Positions 50,778 through 50,978 of a stretch of DNA of 64,000 bases are shown piece after piece. Position 1 is the stretch's first letter, and every line of letters begins with the position of its first letter. Origin of the DNA: Anaerolineales bacterium (lineage in GTDB: Bacteria; Chloroflexota; Anaerolineae; Anaerolineales; UBA6663); contig JADLEU010000122.1 in the NCBI GenBank assembly GCA_020845955.1, forward strand, positions 1 through 64,000, given 5' to 3'. The position numbers and the translations under genes were made by a program. The notes beneath the pieces were generated by a model, which had not been told where the DNA came from, searched no databases, and worked only from the letters and a program-made list of their open reading frames with translations.

Positions 50778-50978
50778 ATGTTTGACGAATTGCTGGAAGA
50801 ATCCATCGCTGAGGGCCGAACCATCACTTATGCCATCGGTCGCGACGGAGGCGAAGTCCCGCCGGACCCGGTGCTCGCGGCGCGCGTCGAAGTGGCCCGC
50901 CGGCTTCTGGCTGATCGTGACCTGATCCCCGGTCTGGTCACGAGGATGGATTGGACAAAGGACGCTCCCTGGTGGTAA
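50778..50978 (+). CDS. 66-aa candidate pheromone precursor (ComX-like)
   Basis: GGAGGGAGACAATC-ATG; MFDELLEESIAEGRTITYAIGRDGGEVPPDPVLAARVEVARRLLADRDLIPGLVTRMDWTKDAPWW; upstream of synthase. Confidence 0.55.
   Translation: MFDELLEESIAEGRTITYAIGRDGGEVPPDPVLAARVEVARRLLADRDLIPGLVTRMDWTKDAPWW

Follow-up and report, generated by a model that had tools for sequence, protein, structure and literature searches.

Analysis of the window, the whole 64,000-nucleotide stretch of the Anaerolineales contig JADLEU010000122.1, revealed a same-strand cluster encoding, in this order, a response regulator, a 66-amino-acid (aa) peptide (X), a prenyl-synthase-like enzyme (Q), a multi-transmembrane (multi-TM) histidine kinase and an M28 peptidase. 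The genes and elements of the region, with the evidence for each, are as follows.

48940..49731, minus strand: ParA/MinD-type ATPase, a divergent neighbor of relevance to synteny only and outside the proposed system (profile match; present in the related genome G001, described below)
49974..50666, plus strand: NarL/LuxR-type response regulator with ComA-like architecture (Pfam Response_reg, 4e-11; GerE, 3.5e-9)
50764..50777, plus strand: Shine-Dalgarno (SD) region GGAGGGAGACAATC of the X gene (sequence; directly 5' of the ATG)
50778..50978, plus strand: X, putative 66-aa precursor peptide (translation, orthologue alignment, pS > pN)
51010..51037, plus strand: hairpin between X and Q, with a 9-bp perfect stem, CAGCAGCCC/GGGCTGCTG, followed by TTTCT (z of -2.65 and -3.36 for the gaps of the two genomes)
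51057..51980, plus strand: Q, trans-isoprenyl-synthase-fold enzyme and putative Trp prenyltransferase (PF00348, 4.9e-16; model, motif census, tree)
51946..54324 (start possibly 51952), plus strand: sensor histidine kinase with ComP-like layout (profiles, hydropathy, model)
54324..55634, plus strand: M28-family peptidase with hydrophobic segments (PF04389, 1.2e-27; G001 orthologue, 4.5e-173)

The X gene lies 111 nt past the regulator stop and 78 nt ahead of the Q gene. Its reading frame comprises 66 codons and a TAA stop: MFDELLEESIAEGRTITYAIGRDGGEVPPDPVLAARVEVARRLLADRDLIPGLVTRMDWTKDAPWW. The product has a conserved leader, MFDELLEES, a variable body and the C-terminus RMDWTKDAPWW, in which three Trp codons (50952-50954, 50970-50972, and 50973-50975) place Trp at positions 8, 2, and 1 counted from the C-terminal end. 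An in-frame upstream ATG at 50679 would make X 99 aa long. This longer start was ruled out by homology and by the SD sites, both of which favor 50778; the latter is the better start because the ORF in G001 begins at the aligned Met, has its own AAAGGAGGCAAACA-ATG, and lacks an upstream extension. The preliminary description had named a 66-aa, Trp-terminated ORF with an acidic body at 50778-50978 and had preferred its ribosome binding site and ATG to the start at 50679. The ORF itself was confirmed by the orthologue, BLASTP, pN < pS, and the rarity of its WW end: of the window's 273 ORFs in the 50-100 aa range, Trp occurs within the last 10 residues in 19% and a WW end in only one. The choice of start is borne out by GGAGGGAGACAATC and by the G001 start with its own SD site, and the acidic character of the body by approximately 13 D/E against 8 K/R, counted by eye. 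X matched no family in Pfam (E <= 10) or NCBIfam.

An orthologous cluster was located on contig JADZEK010000009.1 of Anaerolineales bacterium isolate SJ819 (G001), which belongs to the same family as the window genome and to another genus. The gene order ParA / RR / ORF / Q / HK / M28 is the same in both. The Q proteins are 57% identical, and the kinases matched at 1.7e-266 and the peptidases as listed above. The G001 ORF encodes 68 aa (MFDKLLEESVTEAEALTETIGQQEEHQASRTAIGTTVTRAIRSLPVDAMLVALVMVWAVPQKSIAWWG), and its SD sequence, AAAGGAGGCAAACA, occupies the place matching GGAGGGAGACAATC in the window. Alignment of the ORFs between the regulator and synthase genes, which had been suggested as a check, showed that the leader and the terminal Trp residues are conserved and that the body has diverged: the start MFDxLLEES is common to both, and the terminal Trp pair is kept (...APWW / ...AWWG). 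From the aligned Met to the terminal WW, identity amounted to 36%; pairwise BLASTP gave E = 1e-8, with 23/69 residues identical. For the whole X ORF, pS was 0.60 and pN was 0.41; for its first 21 codons, the values were 0.52 and 0.24, and for the Q gene they were 0.71 and 0.26. These values, together with the G001 alignment, indicate that X is a coding sequence whose leader is constrained and whose body changes fast. As judged from them, X is under purifying selection, which is strongest in the leader. G001 holds the only close X orthologue among the genomes searched, and two scans of genome contigs led to this single locus.

The AlphaFold2 model of Q (pLDDT 93) gave prenyl diphosphate synthases as best PDB matches in Foldseek, and the Trp farnesyltransferase Ord1 was also among the matches. 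On this model, a trans-IDS fold is confidently predicted for Q. The enzyme carries a FARM, DDFQD (residues 75-79; 51279-51293), and a second motif, QIADDFHD (51639-51662; Q195-I-A-D198-D-F-H-D202). D75 and D79 of the FARM are invariant in all 33 aligned Q-type enzymes, and GGKxxR or RRG after the FARM was found in none of the 33, window Q included. In canonical synthases, GGKxxR and RRG bind diphosphates and IPP, and the canonical paralogues in the window genome (contigs C13 and C233) keep both. An ordinary prenyl diphosphate synthase was therefore rejected as the leading reading of Q, since the motifs of the IPP site are missing; by its motifs, Q is a relative of the prenyl synthases without an IPP site. 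Qx2[DN][DE] is present at the second motif in 32/33 Q-type enzymes, the exception being the window-type locus L082. The Gln three residues ahead of the second motif (Qx2Dx3D) is present in window Q and is not discriminating because canonical synthases have Qx2Dx3D too.

ComQ and PalQ are trans-IDS-like enzymes in which the FARM is kept and the second motif region serves in Trp recognition (PMC5331326, PMC10853753). The second motif of window Q is DDxxD (DDFHD) and differs from the ComQ pseudo-SARM, NDxxx or GDxxx; ND at this position was found among Q-type enzymes only in the sister loci L078, L080, and L043. In Bacillus ComQ, replacing Asn with Asp at the first position of the second motif sharply cuts activity (PMC5331326), and by this precedent the intact DDxxD of window Q is a point against Trp prenylation. 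PalQ, like window Q and unlike ComQ, has Asp in its second motif (D200/D204), yet it is active without them (PMC10853753).

Hydropathy and the structural model point to a kinase consisting of TM1, a beta-rich extracytoplasmic domain, approximately eight more TM helices, GAF, a HisKA_3-like region with its His codon at 53725-53727, and HATPase. HATPase_c scored above its Pfam cutoff, and HisKA_3 (E of 5e-4) scored below its own. A PDZ profile matched 5/12 kinase homologues (best, 2.3e-7), the window kinase not being among them. ComP has ten TM helices, with a PDZ domain in the TM1-TM2 loop (PMC9620489). A Foldseek search with the kinase model (pLDDT 72.6) gave no significant match; for the N terminus, the matches were insignificant and GPCR-like (E > 1e-3), with one PDZ at rank 48, and were not taken as functional evidence.

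With respect to the ComA-type regulators, which combine a receiver bearing a phospho-acceptor Asp with a LuxR HTH, the window regulator has the receiver and GerE and lacks the Asp. At the phospho-acceptor position, its codon 50139-50141 reads AAC (Asn, in VVLLNLGLP); Asp occupies this position in each of the eight relatives aligned, G001 included. The window regulator is possibly phosphorylation-blind or phosphorylation-independent, or the base is wrong in the assembly; for lack of this Asp, the final signaling step may be broken or different here unless the base is in error.

The gap between X and Q in G001 (L014 6420-6491) contains a hairpin with the same stem (CAGCAGCCC/GGGCTGCT), a different loop, and a short T run, and an Rfam search of the window cluster region gave no match. 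The X-Q hairpin looks terminator- or attenuator-like and could keep the mRNA of the precursor in excess over that of the enzyme. The kinase gene overlaps the end of the Q gene, and the start of the M28 peptidase gene overlaps the kinase stop (TGATG). The peptidase is kept in G001, was not detected in other window-type loci, and is a candidate enzyme for maturation, turnover, or degradation of the signal.

When profiles were run against 397 Anaerolineae genomes and 300 from the window's order, and the neighborhoods of the matches were then read, about 50 Q-type loci came to light in Anaerolineae. In most of them, Q is positioned beside a short precursor, a kinase, and often a regulator. A search of 301 genomes sampled across the phylum gave no Q-type match outside the window genome at 1e-46, and the family therefore looks centered on Anaerolineae on this sampling. 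A plasmid search returned one distant polyprenyl synthetase, in Acaryochloris, with no annotated kinase beside it. The enzyme tree set 10 rows of window-type enzymes apart (support, 99) from the other 27, among which are every sampled NHLP-type locus and a number of loci without an identified precursor; three canonical enzymes stood apart.

A search with a profile built from only the first ~50 residues of five NHLP-type precursors revealed 29 such precursors in the vicinity of Q, distributed over 28 loci. Every one of the 29 carries Trp in its variable tail, compared to 11.6 expected at a 1.55% background, a count that treats related precursors as independent and includes the five that trained the leader profile. 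The Trp frequency was 6.6% in tails and 1.0% in leaders. The tails are diverse (ENWR, HRGWM, RGKWG, LAEWG, SPTWGSWG, YRW, and VGWR). The window genome has two more Q loci of this type, L020 (contig C111) and L021 (contig C349), both with EDLPWQSPQF, and one of the two is complete with kinase and regulator. Five NHLP-type precursors are multi-core, with GPWGWQF, GPWDWQF, GPFPGWQG, or SWYQ repeats, and their sequences suggest that a single precursor could yield the signal in several copies.

Multi-core precursors: L061 1517-1945; L062 3988-4542; L063 6046-6384; L064 5653-6369; L120 4598-4882

In the window-type loci, the candidates are ORFs with an SD site that lie between the regulator and Q genes. 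In eight of nine, Trp falls within the 10 C-terminal residues (P ~1e-5 at the window background, a rough value from few loci, two of which are paralogues in one genome). Their ends include KYGWF, GRFWLS, TDLWTPPGPV, GLWDRK, LLCWPRCDGA, and NSACWFGSCSNV, and the sole candidate without an in-frame Trp near the end is L077 (G444; 4646-4900). For the ORF ending in GRFWLS (G171b), the listed start is longer and lacks an SD site, and the start was set at the Met aligning with its paralogue. This paralogue pair, in one genome (G171), has similar leaders and different tails, a ComX-like pattern. The check for a C-terminal Trp also came out in favor beyond the window and G001, with L077 as the exception. 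At L082 (5830-6700), one regulator-Q gap contains two different candidates, ending in GLWDRK and LLCWPRCDGA, whose middle parts are similar and include GFG. At L015 (4615-5075), one Q is preceded by a tandem pair of almost identical precursor genes.

The preliminary description had also likened X to a ComX precursor. The likeness stands as an analogy, X having the ComX-type size (about 52-73 aa) and a Trp near the C terminus. Membership in the ComX family was not upheld: PF05952 matched neither X nor any protein in 151 Chloroflexota genomes, a search in which the control genomes were likewise silent. By its sequence, X is not of the ComX family, and by the pseudo-SARM Q is not a ComQ. Like the window, the ComQXPA loci of Bacillus (PMC4008528, PMC5331326, PMC9620489) encode on one strand a synthase-like enzyme, a 52-73-aa Trp precursor, a multi-TM kinase, and a NarL/LuxR-type regulator, and in both, no part varies as much as the precursor. 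The PDZ between TM1 and TM2 of ComP has a counterpart in some homologues of the window kinase. In contrast, the gene order is A-X-Q-P in the window and Q-X-P-A in ComQXPA, and the second motif of window Q differs as described above, although ND is found in the three sister loci named there.

Of the systems described so far, PalQ/PalX/PalP of Paenibacillus alvei, rather than ComX, arguably comes closest. That cluster consists of an NHLP precursor, a Trp prenyltransferase, and a kinase, and its enzyme step has been shown experimentally (PMC10853753). It shares with the window a short precursor with a C-terminal Trp, a trans-IDS-fold prenyltransferase, Qx2Dx3D, and an adjoining histidine kinase. 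PalX has the NHLP leader type that is common to the Anaerolineae NHLP-type sister loci. In window X, by contrast, an NHLP leader was not detected at E <= 10; the window cluster also differs in its NarL-type regulator, its M28 peptidase, and its phylum. Membership of Q in the PalQ type is plausible from a comparison with the published descriptions of PalQ and PalX. The NHLP / Os1348-type precursors (NF038399, PF14407) represent the leader family of the 29 sister precursors, including those of the two further loci in the window genome; the sister precursors fell just under the NF038399 cutoff (best, 39 versus 40 bits), and window X was unmatched.

X is very probably the precursor of a signal peptide. 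The cluster as a whole, X-Q-kinase-regulator, is likely to be a self-sensing, Trp-prenylated peptide signal system that works like ComQXPA and PalQ/PalX/PalP, and we infer its course from prenylation, processing, and export to sensing and output. X would be a ribosomal precursor translated in excess. The FARM of Q would bind an allylic prenyl diphosphate, and the enzyme would move the prenyl chain onto a Trp near the X C terminus, probably W65 or W66. The leader would be removed, perhaps with the aid of the cotranscribed M28 peptidase, and the resulting short lipopeptide would get outside the cell. The multi-TM kinase would detect it via the extracytoplasmic/TM region and relay the signal to the NarL-type regulator as the readout.

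Other explanations of the cluster were weighed against this one. X could be a prenylated RiPP whose product is antibacterial or another secreted metabolite, with the two-component system controlling production or protecting the cell and no quorum-sensing loop. In Pseudomonas, an NHLP-clan precursor, Os1348, has been connected with antibiotic activity (PMC7726476), and the multi-core precursors of L061-L064 and L120 suggest high product output. However, the genes that recur are a kinase of ComP topology and often a NarL-type regulator, and no fixed transporter, immunity gene, or further tailoring gene was seen in neighborhoods that were screened for the system's own parts, so that others were possibly missed. 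This explanation appears unlikely. We regard it as quite improbable that X is a small regulatory protein, binding for example the regulator or the kinase, with Q making a free prenyl product and the Trp being structural. In its favor, X lacks Pfam and NCBIfam matches and has an acidic leader as its most conserved part. Against it, the Q-type enzymes lack the IPP-binding motifs required for chain elongation, and in the 29 precursors it is the variable tails, rather than the leaders, that are rich in Trp.

A spurious frame in the regulator-synthase gap was also considered, as ORFs of this size are common in the GC-rich window (the 273 mentioned above). Against it stand the G001 orthologue with the same start, an SD site, and the same C terminus, the finding of pN < pS, and the occurrence of short ORFs with SD sites at the corresponding position of other window-type loci. 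The spurious-frame explanation is thus hardly tenable and close to refuted.

Beyond the window, it seems fairly probable that Anaerolineae carry a large and diverse Trp-prenylated peptide signal system with at least two precursor types, one with an NHLP leader (some members multi-core) and one, the window subclade, with a leader unlike any known family. If so, multi-core precursors would each yield one pheromone in several copies, and Trp-prenylation signaling would not be a specialty of Bacillota. A 2014 census placed ComQXPA-like loci in Firmicutes only, and a 2022 study listed for Chloroflexi an HK-RR pair alone. The open literature searched contained no report of lipopeptide quorum sensing of the ComQXPA/Pal type in Chloroflexota, a statement that is provisional because subscription literature was outside the search. 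As a new source of candidate Trp prenyltransferases, the loci offer a variety of cores (WW, WG, SWYQ, and GPWGWQF) and leader types. With concrete precursors, cognate enzymes, and receptors at hand, cell-to-cell signaling becomes testable in the mostly uncultured and often filamentous Chloroflexota.

The cluster is flanked by the ParA-type ATPase and by SSB-like and tyrosine-recombinase-like proteins (48400-49731 and 57196-58248; the latter two recognized by eye). The region may be, or may formerly have been, a mobile or plasmid-like element.
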